DNA of 64,000 bases from Fibrobacter succinogenes (GTDB lineage: Bacteria; Fibrobacterota; Fibrobacteria; Fibrobacterales; Fibrobacteraceae), in NCBI RefSeq assembly GCF_902779965.1, contig NZ_CACZDK010000003.1:124001-188000 (forward strand), in the 5' to 3' direction. Below, piece after piece: positions 7,801 to 28,335 of this stretch. The position numbers and the translations under genes are program-made. The notes beneath the pieces were generated by a model. It saw nothing but the letters and a program-made list of their open reading frames with translations. It ran no database searches and had not been told where the DNA came from. The first letter of the stretch is position 1. The number at the start of each line of letters is the position of its first letter.

Positions 7801-9219
7801 TAGCGCATCATATACGGTTTCCGTCGAATAGACTTTACCGGTATAGGCTTTGCCGTCTTCATCTCCAAAAGCTTTGCCTTCGGCTATTTGAACAAAACTC
7901 CCCGGTTGATGACCACCAGCCACGATAAACATTCCAACTTTGATGGAATCAGTTTTTTTACGCCAATCCAAAGTGATTGAACCAGACTCAACTCTACCAA
8001 CATTGTAAGAACCACCGTTAAATATAACACGACCTTTACTAGCAAACAATTGACCACCTACTTTCACGGAAATTCCGTTTATAATAAGATCTTTATTCCT
8101 TCCTGCACCTATATCACCTTGTACGTATTCATAGCTACCCTTCTGACTATAAACATTCAATTTTCCAGAGCCATTCTTCTGACCATAAATATTCAAGTTT
8201 CCTTGGCTTTTTATACCGAAGAGAATATCCTTTTCATACTCCACAACGTTAAATTCGGCATTATCCGCAATGATAAGGTTAACATCCTCGTCCCCAAAGT
8301 CAATTTGGCCCTCAAAAGTTACACGATCGCTCACTACATACCAGCCACCCGGCAATTTCGTTGACTCCTTAATGTTCGGTAAAAGTGTATCGAGGATGAC
8401 ATAATCCTCAACACTTCGCTCGACTCCGTTTTCGTCCATGTAGAAGAAAGGAGTCTTTGCGGGCACAAGTGTTTTGTCTAGGATGCTATAAATATTGTCA
8501 ACAGATAATTGGCCGCTGTAAAATTTGCCGTTTTCATCCTTGACGTATAAATCATTCTTTATGGTGAAGGTGTTTGCATGAATTACATTGCGCACTCTAA
8601 AAGAATCTGTGGGATTTTTCCAACCAAGCGTAATCGATGTTGCGTCAAGTTCTTCTACATCGACATTACCACCATGAAATTCAAAATTTTGAACATCTAT
8701 GCGTACATTATCTTTATGACTATCGTTTTTAGGATTATTATAATCCGTTGTGACGTGACCGCCATAAATAGCTATAGAGACATTAGATGCTGTAGTAGGG
8801 TCAATACCATTTTTGACATTTAATACACCCGTACCTAAAATGGGTTTATTGTAGCTAGTTGATCCTACGAAAATGGATATAGAAGGAACATCTGAAAGTC
8901 CTAAATCTTTTTTATAATATAATTTGTTGCAGTTTAAATAAGCTCCATCCATTAAAATAATCTTGATACTACCCTCGAACCCGATATTCTTATCACCCAG
9001 ATCTACGGTGTCATATACCACATAAATACCGTTATTCTGCATAAGCGTCATATGGTCAATGTCTTTTGAGAGATAATTAAAAAGAGATACGGGCTCCCTT
9101 TCTCCGTTTTCGTCAATATAAAAGATATATCCCCACGAAGTTGCCGCCATAAGCAGGGTAAAGATGAGCACAAGCCCCAAACGGAGCGAACGTAATGAAT
9201 GAATTAGATGACTGGTCAT
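4828..9219 (-). CDS. Large modular secreted surface protein with InlB-type repeats and a T9SS-like C-terminal domain
   Basis: The 1463-residue product has a Sec signal peptide (hydrophobic residues about 13-30). Four related modules open with a Y-x-DENG motif (near residues 31, 257, 563 and 869) and continue with a WYVV strand and an LILADGA-like strand, as in beta-helix or adhesin scaffolds. Two InlB B-repeat (Listeria-Bacteroides) domains lie near 491-561 (ending TLFAQW) and 793-862 (ending TAYAIW). A DYTVECFEN...GMGNYRGD domain near 1091-1176 is the Ig-like repeat often found in such proteins. The C-terminus (TYDLKGRIV ... GAYYGKKFVK) looks like a type A type IX secretion sorting domain. 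It is therefore probably exported and cell-surface attached. Possible role: adhesion or substrate contact. The 119 bp upstream of its start hold a hairpin (AGCCCAAATGGGTT near 9296-9309) and no clear promoter. Confidence 0.8.
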   Translation of the reverse strand: MTSHLIHSLRSLRLGLVLIFTLLMAATSWGYIFYIDENGEREPVSLFNYLSKDIDHMTLMQNNGIYVVYDTVDLGDKNIGFEGSIKIILMDGAYLNCNKLYYKKDLGLSDVPSISIFVGSTSYNKPILGTGVLNVKNGIDPTTASNVSIAIYGGHVTTDYNNPKNDSHKDNVRIDVQNFEFHGGNVDVEELDATSITLGWKNPTDSFRVRNVIHANTFTIKNDLYVKDENGKFYSGQLSVDNIYSILDKTLVPAKTPFFYMDENGVERSVEDYVILDTLLPNIKESTKLPGGWYVVSDRVTFEGQIDFGDEDVNLIIADNAEFNVVEYEKDILFGIKSQGNLNIYGQKNGSGKLNVYSQKGSYEYVQGDIGAGRNKDLIINGISVKVGGQLFASKGRVIFNGGSYNVGRVESGSITLDWRKKTDSIKVGMFIVAGGHQPGSFVQIAEGKAFGDEDGKAYTGKVYSTETVYDALWEKDEYLSSLNGKTLKPCYAVTFQALNGTEPVVAAATFNEQGYANIAEPPAPTRNGSKFYRWSTTEDGTRGYFFNIPVTENMTLFAQWNKDRLEYIDENGQSQSLNSYTVLTSDLIKANEEEGVVNLPGAWYVVHNTFYDSVDVYVEDYTLSFNGDAHIILADGAELKAVAYDKTVIQSSGNLTFYAQTLGTGKLTAYDSSETNSTILAHQKVTFNGGIVTVRNGHAAGRPAVKTEYYPGRIYINSGIVNISSNTDAEEPEYTLKVYDVILDWRSAKDRYTLGSADRFSIANGKTFKEENGKICHRYEFDNAFKDKPIVPCYIVYIDNQDGLQPKETIASFDENGEAHVTKPEDPTRVGTTFVGWAATKEGSKVFDWSAPISGHTTAYAIWDDMKPVEYVDENGKTQKVTEYFLLTSDIGEPDENHYLRFTGGWYVVQGEVTFSSDALNALSFSDDVHLILADGAKLNVEAQNMYFDALYIHTQSRGTGSFNAKKLGIYENLCIYGGNFTFDEIAADGDGATINGGNINVGRIYAYDLVVNGGSVDASLMEGWSVTLGWNSTDDHITAEELRIAASSPSMAIDIAKGKAFKDEDGNIYDEPVPINYYGSSLSGKMLTPLKWITSEDIVVDDIAIQAYTGNPVCPDVVVKDGKKTLKVKTDYTVECFENVEKSSTAPYVKITGMGNYRGDIEKHFAILERTADFASVGIFKDEDGLSIAAIDANYGEDGTVNIDEEITVDSVKFERSFTKESRSTIVLPFSVSTSQIKGLKQVLAFSKIVVEDGQKAVGMHVVWENTSSEHVTLNAYTPYIVLMDGDKFDIEGSVTLEVTRDAVDNGTNKSSEWEFRGSLTYKKWEEGNPELGSIYGFAGNADKKAGVEVGDFVRVAAGAWVNPMRAYLVKKPSASAVRANGAIAKTATTSSIDELPASMRIVIIDDEETEEEHTTVIGQHNVRTTPYRVNFMPHTYDLKGRIVSNGKKARGAYYGKKFVK

Positions 9220-18660: not shown

Positions 18661-18726
18661 TGTGCACTTTTTTATGCACATTTCCCGCGCATTTTCAAAT
18701 GCAATTTCAAACGCTTTTTCAAAAGC
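18661..18726. promoter_or_regulatory. Three adjacent palindromes between birA and the FISUMP gene
   Basis: TGTGCA-8 nt-TGCACA (18661-18680), GCATTTTCAAATGC (18689-18702) and GCTTTTTCAAAAGC (18713-18726). The last two share the plan GC-N-TTT...AAA-N-GC and start 24 bp apart. They could be operator sites for the downstream lipoprotein gene, or they could act in ending birA transcription. Confidence 0.4.
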
Positions 18727-18878
18727 ACTTCACGCGCATTTTACGATTGCACCCAAAACACAAAAATTTTATCTGCACAAACGTACAACATTTTACAACA
18801 TTTCTTTTACACAGAAAAGTGTAACCATGCTCTTACAACAATAATATTTGTATATTGCGCCTAAAATAAGGAGGCAAT

Positions 18879-21800
18879 ATGCACATTTTTCAAAGTGCAT
18901 CCAGGAAGGCACTGTTTTCAGCGTGTCTAATTTTTCCGTTTTTCATGTACGCATGCGGCGGCGACAGCGGCAGCAGCGCAACAGAAGATGACTACACCGA
19001 CGAAGAAGATGACGAAGACAACCTTGGCGGTGAAGAATTCAAAGATTCCACCATTATAGGTAGTAATTACAAATCCAAAGCAGGCATCGCAACCATCATC
19101 AAAAGCGAAATCCTGGATACCAAAAGCGGAAACACCTACAAAACCATTCAATTCGGCCCTTACACTTGGATGGCCGAAAACGCCAACTACAAAGTCTCCC
19201 GCAGTTCCTGTTACGAAGAAGATTACGAAAATTGCGAATCCAAAGGCCGCTTGTATCAAAGCATGAATGCCGACCAAGCGTGCCCTAGCGGGTTCAAGAT
19301 TCCTACCGAAGCCGATTTCGAATACTTGGTCAACTTTGCCAACAACATCGCTGACCGCGATTTCGGATTCAACCTGCAAATGTCCGGTTACTGCGAAACC
19401 GTCAATGGCGATCTTCAATGCAGCCGCATGGACAAAGAAGCATACCTCCTTACCTCTGGTTTCAACGTATTCAGAGCCAATTCCAAGGGCAAATACGATT
19501 TTTCCGAAGCCAATTTCAGTGCCTATTACGCTCTCCGTTGCATGAAACTTTCGCATTTTGTGGAAAACGAAAATCAACTCCCCACTTGCGATTCCTCTAC
19601 CTACAAGACACTTGACGATTTCTTTGTGGCAAGCAAAGGCAAGAACTACTACTGCAATAAAAAGAAGTGGGTCAAGGACGACGAAAATTACTGTTCCTCT
19701 TCGGAAAGAGGCGAAAAGCACTATTACAAGGACACGTTGTTTATTTGTCGAAACAACACCTGGGAATACGCCACCATGAACGACGTCAGCGCAAGCTGCA
19801 CCAAGGAAAACCAGTGGGAAGTCCGCAAACTGAACGGTCAAAGCTACATCTGCGATGATTCCACTTGGCGCAAGCCCTCGGCCATCGAAACAGCAATCGG
19901 CCTTTGCAATTTGGACAGCCTCCAAAAAATGGGTACATACATCAACAAAAAGGAATCCACGGACTACATCTGCGATTCTACAGGTTGGCGCAAAACCGTG
20001 CTCACGGACTCCATCGGAACATGCACAGTCAAGAATCAATGGGCGCTCAAAATCAATTACGAACAAAAGTACGTCTGCGACGATTCCACTTGGCGCAAGC
20101 CCACCACCATCGAAGATTCCATTGGGCTTTGCACTCCCGACAGTTTAAAGAAAATGAAAACCTTAAAAACCAGATCGGATTCCACGCAGTACTTCTGCGA
20201 CACAACGGGCTGGCGCAAGGCGGTCCTCCTCGATTCCATCGGCCAATGCGTTAAAGACAGGCAATGGGAACAGAAGAAAAATTACGGAAAGAACTACCTC
20301 TGTAAGGATTCGAGCTGGCGCAAAGCTACCGCCCGCGAAGATTCCATCGGATTCTGCATTCCGAACAAAATCGGCATGATCGATTCACTCAAGAGCTACG
20401 GAAGCTACGAATCTTACTATTGCGACTCTACGGGCTGGCGCAGCACCGTCCTCACCGACTTCTATGGGAACTGCGATTCTACAAAGTTCTACAACGAGAT
20501 TGAATACAAGGGCACCACCTACGTTTGCCGTACCACCAAGAAATGGGATACGCTCTTCTCGACCGAAAAGAACTTCGGCATTTGCACACCAAAAATTTAC
20601 GGCAAAATTGACACGCTCAAGTCGAGCAGCACAAGCTATATATGCGATTCTACAGGTTGGCGCACAACAACTATTTACGATTACTACGGCAACTGCGATT
20701 CCACAAAGCTCTACACGACAAGAACGTACAACGGAACCACATACGGTTGCCAAACGCCAACCAAGTGGGAAAAACTCACGCACCCCACATCGGCTTTCGG
20801 ATTCTGCACGCCCAAGCTGAAAGGTACGCTAAAAACAGATAGCACCGGCCGCGATTACATTTGCGATTCACTTTGGCGCCAAGCCACAAAATCCGAAGTT
20901 CTCGGACTCTGCGACGATGACAGAGAAGGCTTTGAAAAGATTCATAACTCCGTCAAATATGCCTGTGCCAATGACGAATGGCGAACACTGACCAAATTGG
21001 AAAACACCTTGGGACTCTGCTACAAGGCCGTTTTGGACAAAGTTGCAAAATCTAACGACACCACTTACATCTGCAAAGAAAGCGGTTGGTCGAAATACTC
21101 CGTTGTCGATGCATTCGGTAACTGCACTTCCGCCATCGCCGGAAAGATTGTGGAATTCGGAAACATAAGCTACGGATGCAAAAATTCCAGCTGGAAAGTT
21201 CTTGATTCCATCGAAGTCGCCTTAGGAATTTGCACTACATCCAGCACCAAGGTATACGAATACAAAGGGAAATATTACTACTGTTCAGGTTCCACCTGGA
21301 GTATCGCTCCCGTCGGATACGTTCTAGAAAAGTGCACCGATGCACTGTTCGGTAAAATCGAAGTCTACCAAGACAAAAACTACTATTGCTCCGCCAGCAA
21401 TACATGGCAAGAGTACACCGATCTTGAAAAAGAACTGGGATTCTGCACCGGCAAAAACCAAAATGAAATTCACGAATACAAAGGGAAAAAATACGGTTGC
21501 ACCTATAAGAACATAAATAGTGAAACAAGATTCATTTGGCGTGAAGAAAATAATCTCGACAAAGAACTCGGTTTCTGCCACGGAACCGGTTTAACATGGA
21601 AAGAATACAATGGCAAGGATTACGCTTGTGCAAGAGGAAGTAGTGGAGAGTGGTATAATAGTTCATTCTGGAGTATGTACGGTAGGTGCAGTAGCTCTGA
21701 AACTCAAGCGCTTGGTTTAACAGTAGGTTTGAATGGACAACACTACTATTGCAACACCAACTTGAATAGCACTTCTTCAACATATAATTATGGTTGGTAC

Positions 21801-22658
21801 GCATTGCAAGCCATAGACAGCCTCAAAGGCCCTTGCTACAAAGACAAACTAGGCGACACTTTGACATTTAACGATTCCGCCTACTATTGCGGTACAAACA
21901 GCAATGGATATTACAGATGGGTTCAGGCAACAACATTGGCTCAATATCTCGGCCGATGCTCCGTAGCCAACGAAGGCTCATCGGCAATCTTTAACGGAAA
22001 GCGCCTTCAATGCTTCGATGGAAACTGGCGTAGAGACCCTGCCGATTACGGCACCATGACAGACGCTAGAGACGGTACCCAATACAAGACCATCAAAATT
22101 GGCAAGCAAGAATGGATGGCAGAAAACTTAAAATACGAAGTTGATGGCAGTTGGTGCGGCGGGAACGACAACGGATGCTCAACCTACGGCCGCCTGTACA
22201 GCTGGGACATGACCGTCGGCTTACCCAAGAATGCCAACCCCACTTTAGTTGAAATTTCCAATTCAGAATCACACCAAGGCATTTGCCCCAACGGATGGAG
22301 ACTCCCGACATCGGCAGACTGGGAAACCTTGCACAAATTATGCGACGATTCCGAGTTACGCAAAACCGACGACGGTTACGATGCTTCAAATACAGATATT
22401 TGTGGATTTTCATCATTGCCGGCAGGCTACATGAACGTCTTTTACAGAAACGGAATCGACTACAGCGAAACTCGCTCAGATTATTTTCTCTTAGACAACC
22501 ACTGGCCTTCAACCAATTTGACCACAGCTTACTGGACTTCAGAGCAAAAGTCAGATTCAACGGCGTTGATAATGAATTTTAAAATAGAAACACGAACAAA
22601 CCTTACATATTCAGTCCAAAAAAGAGTCGGATTATCCGTCCGCTGCATAAAGAAATAG
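18879..22658 (+). CDS. FISUMP-domain lipoprotein with 22 cysteine repeats
   Basis: A strong Shine-Dalgarno (AAGGAGG) precedes the ATG. The 1259-residue product has a lipoprotein signal (MYAC, Cys 26) and an acidic linker. A first Fibrobacter major paralogous (FISUMP) domain starts near residue 78 (TYKTIQFGPYTWMAEN) and a second one fills about 1057-1259 (QYKTIKIGKQEWMAEN, then CPNGWRLPTSADWETL). Between them, about residues 235-1055, I count 22 repeats of about 37 residues built as G-x-C ... Y-x-C-x(3-5)-W-R. Each carries two cysteines and a Trp, which suggests one disulfide per unit and a long stalk. FISUMP proteins are typical of Fibrobacter and are thought to act on the cell surface, with some linked to cellulose binding. 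A terminator follows at once. Confidence 0.88.
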   Translation: MHIFQSASRKALFSACLIFPFFMYACGGDSGSSATEDDYTDEEDDEDNLGGEEFKDSTIIGSNYKSKAGIATIIKSEILDTKSGNTYKTIQFGPYTWMAENANYKVSRSSCYEEDYENCESKGRLYQSMNADQACPSGFKIPTEADFEYLVNFANNIADRDFGFNLQMSGYCETVNGDLQCSRMDKEAYLLTSGFNVFRANSKGKYDFSEANFSAYYALRCMKLSHFVENENQLPTCDSSTYKTLDDFFVASKGKNYYCNKKKWVKDDENYCSSSERGEKHYYKDTLFICRNNTWEYATMNDVSASCTKENQWEVRKLNGQSYICDDSTWRKPSAIETAIGLCNLDSLQKMGTYINKKESTDYICDSTGWRKTVLTDSIGTCTVKNQWALKINYEQKYVCDDSTWRKPTTIEDSIGLCTPDSLKKMKTLKTRSDSTQYFCDTTGWRKAVLLDSIGQCVKDRQWEQKKNYGKNYLCKDSSWRKATAREDSIGFCIPNKIGMIDSLKSYGSYESYYCDSTGWRSTVLTDFYGNCDSTKFYNEIEYKGTTYVCRTTKKWDTLFSTEKNFGICTPKIYGKIDTLKSSSTSYICDSTGWRTTTIYDYYGNCDSTKLYTTRTYNGTTYGCQTPTKWEKLTHPTSAFGFCTPKLKGTLKTDSTGRDYICDSLWRQATKSEVLGLCDDDREGFEKIHNSVKYACANDEWRTLTKLENTLGLCYKAVLDKVAKSNDTTYICKESGWSKYSVVDAFGNCTSAIAGKIVEFGNISYGCKNSSWKVLDSIEVALGICTTSSTKVYEYKGKYYYCSGSTWSIAPVGYVLEKCTDALFGKIEVYQDKNYYCSASNTWQEYTDLEKELGFCTGKNQNEIHEYKGKKYGCTYKNINSETRFIWREENNLDKELGFCHGTGLTWKEYNGKDYACARGSSGEWYNSSFWSMYGRCSSSETQALGLTVGLNGQHYYCNTNLNSTSSTYNYGWYALQAIDSLKGPCYKDKLGDTLTFNDSAYYCGTNSNGYYRWVQATTLAQYLGRCSVANEGSSAIFNGKRLQCFDGNWRRDPADYGTMTDARDGTQYKTIKIGKQEWMAENLKYEVDGSWCGGNDNGCSTYGRLYSWDMTVGLPKNANPTLVEISNSESHQGICPNGWRLPTSADWETLHKLCDDSELRKTDDGYDASNTDICGFSSLPAGYMNVFYRNGIDYSETRSDYFLLDNHWPSTNLTTAYWTSEQKSDSTALIMNFKIETRTNLTYSVQKRVGLSVRCIKK

Positions 22659-22689: not shown

Positions 22690-22718
22690 CTTGGCGGTTC
22701 AACGGCCAAGCCTTTTTT
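22690..22718 (+). terminator. Intrinsic terminator after the FISUMP gene
   Basis: Stem CTTGGC / GCCAAG with a 9-nt loop, then CCTTTTTT. It lies against the 3' end of the convergent small membrane protein gene. Confidence 0.8.
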
Positions 22719-25713: not shown

Positions 25714-28212
25714 TTACTTGAATTGAGCCGTGAAGCTTGCGCCTTCCTTCACATCCACCAAACGCGGATTGTCCGTCACGCCATCGTTCCATCCAGTAAA
25801 CACAGCTCCATTATCAGGAACTGCCTTGAGTTCCATTTTAACGCCAACAAAGAACTTGCCCTTGAAATCCTTGCTCGGGAGTTTTGCACCTTCCATAAGC
25901 ACGGAACCGTTTCCAGAAGCACTGATGCTCACAGAAGCCGTACCGCTCAAGCCAAATTCTTCCTGGTATTCCTGAAGGACCACCGGATCGCGATCTTTAG
26001 CCCATTTCTTCAAGCATGAGCCAGTCTTGCTGAAGCCATTGTCATCAGGACAAGAGTTGTGATAGTACCTTTCATTCTGCTTGAACTTTTCAAGGTCGCG
26101 GTTCATTTCGTTATTGTCAATCGTTGCAACCATGGCATCGACAATCTTTTCAACATTCTTAGCGTTCGTATAGCTATTGAACATCAATGCAGAGCGGTTG
26201 ATGAACATACGCTTGAATTCCGGGTTCTTGATAAGCTGGATATAGAGGTTAGCAAAGCAACCTTCTTCCTTGCACGGCTTATTTCCGCCGCCCTTCTTAA
26301 TCCAAGCAAACATGTTGCTGCCTTGGGCAAATTCACCGCCATTTACGCCCCAAGTCCAGTCAAAACCATGATCAAGGTCATAAACCATGAACTTCCACGG
26401 GTGTTCCGGAGCAGACCATGCACGAACGTTGTTGTTCGGCCAGTCGCCATTGTGCATATAAATTTCAGCAGCCATGTAATCCGCCAAGTTACCCACGTCA
26501 AGCATCAACTTTGCCGAAGCGTAATTGGCATTGTTTTCGCCAGAAAAATCATTTGTAGCCACAAAATGAAGCATGTTCTTGTAGGCGTCAATCGTACCAT
26601 TGCTGGCTTCAACTTCTTTCCCCAAGTGCTTGATGAAGTTCACCGAGTTGGCATCAATCTTGTAGTTCGTTTCTACGTAATGCTTGTTGAAACGTTCACG
26701 CATGTCATGGATGCCATAGTACTTGCCGTTGTAGAACACCACCACTTGGCGGCTTCTCTGGTAATCCACGCTTGTCCCTTCAAGGAGCGCGCCACCCATA
26801 GCATCTTCAATGTAGTCACTCACAAAGCGGTTACCGTTATTGCGGAGGTTGAATGCTTTATACTTGTCATTCACGCCCTTGCGAGTTTCGAACAACGGAT
26901 AATTGATGCTACCTTCTTCATATTCTTCACGGAGGCGGATGGCAACGGACTTCTTGTCATTCAAGCGACTATAGCCACCCATCAAAGAAATACCGGCATC
27001 CTTTTCCCATGTAGAGCCATCCTTAGTCGAAGAACCCTTTTCGAAATATTCAACATGAACCGGGTATTCCACATCGGCATAAAGACCGACGCTGTCCGGA
27101 CAACCCTTCGGGGCATCGCACTTCGTCTTAATATAATGTTCACGGAAGAAGCTGGAGTCAACGCTGATCGCAACAATCGGCATCTTCACAGCTTCTTCAT
27201 CAACGAAGAACGTACGGGTCGTTACTTTACTCGAAAGTGCACCCTTCTTAAACGAAGCGCAACGGAAAGCCACGCTATGGTCAATACGTTTCGGAGAATT
27301 GAATTCCGGAGAATTTTCGGTCGGCACAGAGCCGTCCGTCGTGCAGCGGAGCTTGACACCTTCATCAAGAGAAGGCGGATTCAAAGTAAATGCTTCGCTA
27401 TAGAAACCGGACTTGAGGCCGCTCATGTCAGCAGAAGGAGCAACTTCATCATAAGATTTTGTCGTATTCGGTTTTTCCGGAGTCGCTTTTTCAAAGTACT
27501 TCCAATAGCCGCCATCGACAATGCCCCAGCTGAGACCGGCAGTCAATTCAGGGTATGCCACCGAGTCACGGATTCCGTTAAACCTGTCGACCAAGTAAAG
27601 CGTACCCCCATTCTTATCTAGCTTCCAATTCGTATGCGGACGCGTATGACGGTTATCGTTATCAGCAACAGCTACTGCAGAAATATTTTTCTTATCGCAG
27701 AATATAACTCTAAAAGATTTAGCCTTGAGAATATCATGGCCAAAGACCCACTTGCGCAAGTTCTTCAAATTCTCAACAAGTGTATAGCCTTCAAGATCGA
27801 TGTCCTGATCACTGGAGTTGTAGATTTCAACCCAAGACGGATCATTGCCTTCTTCATCGTACCAATCCATATTCAACGGAGAAATTTCCGTTATACGCAA
27901 AGCCGATTGTCCAATCCAACGAAGAGCGGTATCGGGCGGAAGCTGGACATAAATAGGGACCCAAACAGTATCGTTACTGGAATTAATAATTTTTATGTAT
28001 TCCGTACTTGAGGAATACGGAATCGTCGCACTAGAAGAAGAGCCCGTTTTATTTTGATCACAACCATTAGTGTTCAAGCACTGACTTCCGGGTTCATCAG
28101 GTTTTGTAAAATTACCATCATCATTGTCATCAGCACAGCCAACAACAAAAGCTGTACCAAGAACCGCAGCCAGAGAAAGAATCTCTTTAATCCATTTTTT
28201 TGAGCGAATCAC
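25714..28212 (-). CDS. CotH-kinase-family surface lipoprotein with lamin-tail domain
   Basis: The GTG at 28212 is chosen because AGGTGG lies 5 nt before it. The 832-residue product has a lipobox (VVGC), a Ser/Asn-rich linker, a lamin-tail domain (about 104-217, ITEISPLNMDWYDEEGNDPS), a chitobiase-like domain (about 245-340, LRCTTDGSVPTEN), and a CotH kinase-like domain (about 345-720) containing KAFNLRNNGN, GIHDMRERFN and the metal-binding YDLDHGFDW. A divergent InlB-type repeat closes it (FTGWNDGVTDNPR). CotH proteins are secreted protein kinases in spore formers. In fibre-degrading bacteria related proteins sit beside cellulosomal or surface proteins. Single-gene unit with its own terminator. 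Confidence 0.88.
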   Translation of the reverse strand: MIRSKKWIKEILSLAAVLGTAFVVGCADDNDDGNFTKPDEPGSQCLNTNGCDQNKTGSSSSATIPYSSSTEYIKIINSSNDTVWVPIYVQLPPDTALRWIGQSALRITEISPLNMDWYDEEGNDPSWVEIYNSSDQDIDLEGYTLVENLKNLRKWVFGHDILKAKSFRVIFCDKKNISAVAVADNDNRHTRPHTNWKLDKNGGTLYLVDRFNGIRDSVAYPELTAGLSWGIVDGGYWKYFEKATPEKPNTTKSYDEVAPSADMSGLKSGFYSEAFTLNPPSLDEGVKLRCTTDGSVPTENSPEFNSPKRIDHSVAFRCASFKKGALSSKVTTRTFFVDEEAVKMPIVAISVDSSFFREHYIKTKCDAPKGCPDSVGLYADVEYPVHVEYFEKGSSTKDGSTWEKDAGISLMGGYSRLNDKKSVAIRLREEYEEGSINYPLFETRKGVNDKYKAFNLRNNGNRFVSDYIEDAMGGALLEGTSVDYQRSRQVVVFYNGKYYGIHDMRERFNKHYVETNYKIDANSVNFIKHLGKEVEASNGTIDAYKNMLHFVATNDFSGENNANYASAKLMLDVGNLADYMAAEIYMHNGDWPNNNVRAWSAPEHPWKFMVYDLDHGFDWTWGVNGGEFAQGSNMFAWIKKGGGNKPCKEEGCFANLYIQLIKNPEFKRMFINRSALMFNSYTNAKNVEKIVDAMVATIDNNEMNRDLEKFKQNERYYHNSCPDDNGFSKTGSCLKKWAKDRDPVVLQEYQEEFGLSGTASVSISASGNGSVLMEGAKLPSKDFKGKFFVGVKMELKAVPDNGAVFTGWNDGVTDNPRLVDVKEGASFTAQFK

Positions 28213-28335
28213 GGCGACCACCTAAAATAAAGAATACACTTCCCATAGATTTTACCATGGGACACCTTTGTTCCATCCAACACAACTAAATTTAGTAGTT
28301 TTTTTAAAAAAATAACAGTAATATTCTCTTTACCC

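Follow-up and report, generated by a model that had tools for sequence, protein, structure and literature searches.

The window analyzed here, 64,000 nucleotides long, comes from a genome (G000; 4.09 Mb, 97% complete) of Fibrobacter, a gut bacterium that degrades fiber. On its forward strand, positions 18,879–22,658 carry a gene for a predicted lipoprotein of 1,259 amino acids, in which 22 cysteine-tryptophan (CW) units lie between two FISUMP domains. An AAGGAGG sequence abuts the ATG on its upstream side. Relatives of this gene sit downstream of birA, and homologs of menA/ubiX/ubiE are also present in several of these neighborhoods. The intergenic stretch between birA and the FISUMP gene holds a 24-base short tandem repeat (18,674–18,742). 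Just past the stop codon, at 22,690–22,718, a CTTGGC...GCCAAG stem followed by a T run appears terminator-like by eye; a promoter and terminator scan of the locus returned nothing above shuffles, the 9-base loop of this stem exceeding the limits of the scan. Also nearby, on the reverse strand (25,714–28,221), is a gene for an 835-residue CotH kinase/lamin-tail-domain protein that is 81% identical in one relative.

The start of the product (18,879–18,956) reads as a signal peptide ending in a putative lipidated cysteine, Cys26 (FFMYAC-GG), and is similar to the lipobox in relatives. An acidic linker follows (DDYTDEEDDEDN...; 18,957–19,094), and in a Fibrobacter protein it may recall the surface lipoprotein export signal (LES), which in its Bacteroidota type consists of K-(D/E)2 or Q-A-(D/E)2 near the lipid-bearing cysteine (PMC5080379). 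Neither motif was found directly after Cys26, where only an acidic stretch is present. In 29 array proteins, the stretch after the lipid-bearing cysteine is rich in acidic residues (25% Asp/Glu versus 13% elsewhere, with an upstream cysteine taken as the start in a few of the 29). The linker is a possible Fibrobacter variant of the LES, and on these sequence features the protein is probably lipid-anchored on the cell surface.

TIGR02145 matched two stretches of the protein, one at each end, with 222.9 bits (NCBIfam cut-off 41.65). By that criterion the product is a FISUMP domain protein, in agreement with the original prediction that the array lies between two such domains. The membrane-proximal domain spans 19,095–19,553 (residues ~73–225) and the C-terminal domain 22,053–22,652 (residues ~1059–1258). 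With 6 cysteines in each FISUMP domain and 44 in the array, every part of the mature protein contains an even number (6+44+6). FISUMP genes are expanded in the source genome, with 94 matched places. A model of the C-terminal FISUMP domain together with two units was poor (pLDDT 72.7), and a fold search of the PDB with this model gave nothing significant, listing C-type lectins at E values of about 0.6–2; the best E value in a PDB profile search was 0.52. Nevertheless, FISUMP may by analogy be a C-type-lectin-like, putative ligand-binding domain, because diversity-generating retroelements (DGRs) target Fib_succ_major, a domain with similarity to DUF1566, and the variable regions of DUF1566 may be like those of TvpA/Mtd (PMC4159848).

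The array occupies positions 19,587–22,052 (residues 237–1058). Parsing by the first cysteine (C1), the second cysteine (C2), and the anchor tryptophan divides its 822 residues into exactly 22 units of 32–49 residues (mean 37.4), each containing a single C1, C2, and anchor Trp, for a total of 44 Cys and 22 anchor Trp. The unit regular expression matched 20 times in the array compared to a maximum of 3 (mean 0.19) in 2000 residue shuffles, and the predicted 22 units with two cysteines and a tryptophan each are thus borne out. The finer signature that had been proposed, Y-x-C-x(3–5)-W-R, holds in part. C1 and C2 are 17–22 positions apart, and C2 and the Trp 4–6 apart in units 1–17 and 22, but 8–15 apart in the diverged units 18–21 (21,444–21,956), where loops of 7–14 residues separate them; the loops of this region are longer in relatives too. 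The tyrosine before C2 is replaced in unit 2 (F-x-C) and unit 22 (L-x-C), and W-R occurs in only about half of the units. The cysteines at aligned positions are conserved in four relatives. No Pfam model (at E ≤ 1) or NCBIfam model matched the CW array, and TIGR02145 and PF09603 leave its 822 residues uncovered.

The units are ordered in pairs along much of the array. From unit 2 to unit 17 (19,692–21,443), the linker from the Trp to the next C1 alternates between 11 and 12 residues without exception, becoming irregular afterward, and across units 3–15 the nearest other unit within the protein always has the same parity. The predicted odd/even alternation therefore extends through unit 15 by similarity and through unit 17 by linker length and breaks down in the last units. 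Among 61 arrays, adjacent linkers alternated in 468 of 578 cases compared to 299 (s.d. 11) when linkers were shuffled within arrays, a count over arrays that share ancestry and not a tally of independent events. Comparison of repeat number between relatives showed that a close relative in another assembly (L081) matches one to one in 22 of 22 units, while two others (L078 and L079) correspond at every unit save for one inserted pair after unit 9. Tandem Repeats Finder did not detect the array at the DNA level, which indicates that the duplications are old, makes misassembly of reads implausible, and led us to reject recent slippage. An assembly artifact was also rejected, since identity between units does not exceed 66% and the unit-by-unit match holds across relatives assembled separately. 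Taken together, the parity-preserving similarity, the exact two-unit indel, and the family-wide 11/12 alternation argue that the predicted growth by duplicated pairs is right for the first two-thirds of the array. On these comparisons, growth by pair duplication is well supported, and the pairing predates this species.

Absence of the repeat from other genomes had been named as grounds for doubting the array, and this was not the case. A repeat profile matched 85 of 168 genomes in the phylum, made up of 75 of the 80 genomes of the genus, a further eight from the family, and two from the order. The repeat family is therefore real, widespread in Fibrobacter, and missing from the domain libraries searched. 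It is nearly always accompanied by FISUMP, in the layouts FISUMP-(CW)n-FISUMP, FISUMP-(CW)n, and (CW)n-FISUMP, with n of about 5–24 and usually behind a lipobox. Most arrays have a FISUMP domain at the membrane-proximal end, and many end without a C-terminal one. CW-array genes often stand two or three side by side, and a second gene in the source genome has about five units (L096). A search for the repeat outside FISUMP proteins, which had also been suggested, found one example (L113:3428–5167), a lipoprotein of about 10 CW units in which no FISUMP domain was detected and whose gene adjoins a CW-FISUMP gene. Beyond the phylum, we searched phage, plasmid, and viral contig collections and made one pattern-based scan of species genomes. 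The array had zero matches in the phage, plasmid, and viral contig collections, and a phage or plasmid origin was rejected on this basis.

To model the repeat, as the original prediction had proposed for two to four units, AlphaFold2 was run on units 3–6 (19,797–20,246) with an input alignment of 25 in-register four-unit segments, giving a mean pLDDT of 92.5 and a pTM of 0.67. Each modeled unit runs from C1 through a short helix, a strand, a second strand with Y-x-C2, and a third strand with the Trp to a helix that leads into the next C1. The arrangement of one unit against the next is uncertain given the pTM. The model suggests that each CW module folds on its own as a small unit. A Foldseek search of the PDB with the unit model gave nothing at E ≤ 0.001 (best E 0.011, TM 0.16), and a sequence-profile search with the repeat found no PDB relative. 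Among viral models, one Foldseek match reached E 9e-4, but its TM of 0.15 and rmsd of 28.6 show that it is not a fold match.

The protein diverges unevenly along its length. Identity to relatives is 71–78% in the N-terminal FISUMP domain, 69–85% in units 1–4, 35–56% in units 13–22, and 56–62% in the C-terminal FISUMP domain, and the neighboring TsaD is ~98% identical in relatives whose CW protein is 48–59% identical. The fall in identity toward the distal end would be expected if that end were exposed and subject to changing selection, and relaxed constraint would give the same picture. Fast divergence and long loops in the distal units also fit an alternative in which the CW array itself binds polysaccharide multivalently through its aromatics, in the manner of choline- or glucan-binding repeats, with the FISUMP domains as accessories. 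Across units of the family, the Tyr is kept in 87% and the Trp in 99%, several arrays lack the C-terminal FISUMP domain, and the unit model bears a weak likeness to the hairpin repeats of choline- and glucan-binding proteins. However, that likeness is not significant at the Foldseek values above, and Tyr, Cys, and Trp, the most invariant positions, lie on strands beside the putative disulfide, as fits residues of a core. We consider binding by the array fairly unlikely and favor a structural role, in which the array would act as a spacer.

In the 61 arrays, 858 units have a left neighbor that could be defined. Exactly one C1 plus a C2 is present in 831 of them, and the units scored as having C2 without C1 are mostly false matches inside FISUMP. 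Another 10 of the 858 lack both cysteines although the C2 before them and the C1 after them persist, and in 11 of 11 cases where C2 is missing the C1 of the next unit is still there. These ten double losses and the retention of the next C1 indicate that losses couple the C1 and C2 of one unit. The Cys-free units are confined to three arrays (L098, L099, and L117), apparently one divergent group, so there were few independent co-loss events. In these arrays, Cys-bearing units and Cys-free units, with Y in place of C2 and C1 lost, are interspersed. Some extra cysteines in relatives also occur as twos within one unit, as in L082 (CSC...C...C). The within-unit co-loss supports the predicted single disulfide per unit, and each module probably contains one intra-unit C1–C2 bond.

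Fibrobacter is a strict anaerobe. This, and the finding that neither DsbB nor VKOR was detected in any of 44 near-complete Fibrobacter genomes (control genomes matched as expected), would suit cysteines that are reduced and bind metal or that pair between units (C2 bonded to the following C1). Against such cross-unit disulfides and four-Cys metal sites, co-loss is always within a unit and never involves the next unit's C1. Additionally, two-Cys units flanked by Cys-free ones in L098, L099, and L117 could not form a four-Cys site, and cross-unit pairing would orphan both ends of an array that opens with C1 and closes with C2. A DsbA-family protein was found in all 44 genomes, which speaks against reduced cysteines; the source genome encodes its copy, a CPYC-containing lipoprotein, outside the window (G000:C17:112641–113060; L122 1075–1953). 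Reduced or cross-unit cysteines are consequently very improbable, and we retain the intra-unit disulfide. Either a partner that we did not recognize recharges the DsbA-like protein, or the cysteines are oxidized another way. If the 44 cysteines are oxidized, the genus must form many disulfides without a recognizable DsbB or VKOR, a proposition that is directly testable.

These features lead us to propose, with a probability of roughly 0.6, that the protein is a lipid-anchored, disulfide-braced spacer that presents its distal FISUMP domain, probably for adhesion. From the anchor in the envelope, the order would be acidic linker, FISUMP, 22 CW modules, and FISUMP. Each module of ~37 residues would fold as a short helix, a three-stranded meander, and a helix around an internal C1–C2 disulfide, and the modules would follow one another as A/B pairs joined by linkers of 12 and 11 residues. 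As a whole, the array would form a proteolysis-resistant, perhaps rod-like spacer carrying the distal FISUMP domain away from the membrane, where that domain would attach to the plant cell wall (most likely) or to a partner protein. The stalk of the original prediction, long, stiff, and tipped with FISUMP, is plausible, with the tip reading qualified because a second FISUMP domain sits at the base and many relatives have no C-terminal one. Published work lends a fiber-related role indirect support: a FISUMP protein has been reported in the envelope of F. succinogenes S85 on cellulose and not on glucose (PMC4619616).

A FISUMP domain at each end of the protein, and tandem paralogous genes in many genomes, might instead point to a scaffold, with the FISUMP domains serving as docking sites in the manner of cohesins and the array spacing out bound enzymes or further FISUMP proteins. 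The literature has suggested TIGR02145 as an analog of cohesin (PMC4704652, PMC3625147); however, clostridial-like cohesin/dockerin modules were not found in Fibrobacteres genomes (PMC4704652). We judge a scaffold unlikely, below binding by the array itself, and keep to the adhesin-like spacer. Cellulose digestion by Fibrobacter requires close contact with the fiber and proceeds without cellulosomes (PMC3079729, PMC4704652). Its attachment machinery is poorly defined, and these genus-wide, fast-changing, long, Cys-rich FISUMP lipoproteins are a concrete candidate, for the bulk of which the CW repeat supplies a definable module. A bolder version holds that CW is an undescribed disulfide fold restricted to Fibrobacterota, that its A/B pair is obligatory and forms the repeating structural element in a family of stalk adhesins, and that in this strict anaerobe the modules are oxidized by a DsbA-like lipoprotein recharged by some system other than DsbB or VKOR; this is possible but rather doubtful as a whole.

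Several known systems share features with this protein. Its two ends belong with the FISUMP/Fib_succ_major proteins (TIGR02145, PF09603), from which it differs in the CW array that falls outside both models. It resembles the DGR target lipoproteins (PMC4159848) in joining a terminal Fib_succ_major domain to a longer lipoprotein body, but no reverse transcriptase is present at the CW-array locus. A linked reverse transcriptase with a TR/VR pair was not found, the single reverse transcriptase match of the genome being on contig C28 and the window on C3, and DGR target identity was rejected for this gene. The match itself (L131; G000:C28 near 7958–8653) belongs to an apparent DGR that is not linked to the FISUMP gene of the window, in which the Asn-rich, template-like start of the reverse transcriptase ORF matches the end of the adjacent ORF, apparently the variable repeat.

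Choline- and glucan-binding repeats are likewise short tandem units with conserved aromatics and β hairpins, but the Foldseek match of the CW unit model to them is not significant and no choline- or glucan-binding Pfam model matched in the array (E ≤ 1). These families are not known to have a disulfide in each unit. Finally, FNI and CCP entries appear low down in the Foldseek list for the unit model. No Pfam model or significant PDB match places the two-Cys units among the EGF, sushi/CCP, or fibronectin type I families, from which CW differs in having one probable disulfide per ~37-residue unit, A/B pairing, and helical linkers. CW modules would nonetheless work as the rods of these families do, as small Cys-stabilized modules repeated in tandem to form an extracellular spacer, here in what appears from its sequence to be an adhesin-like lipoprotein whose repeat is missing from the libraries searched.
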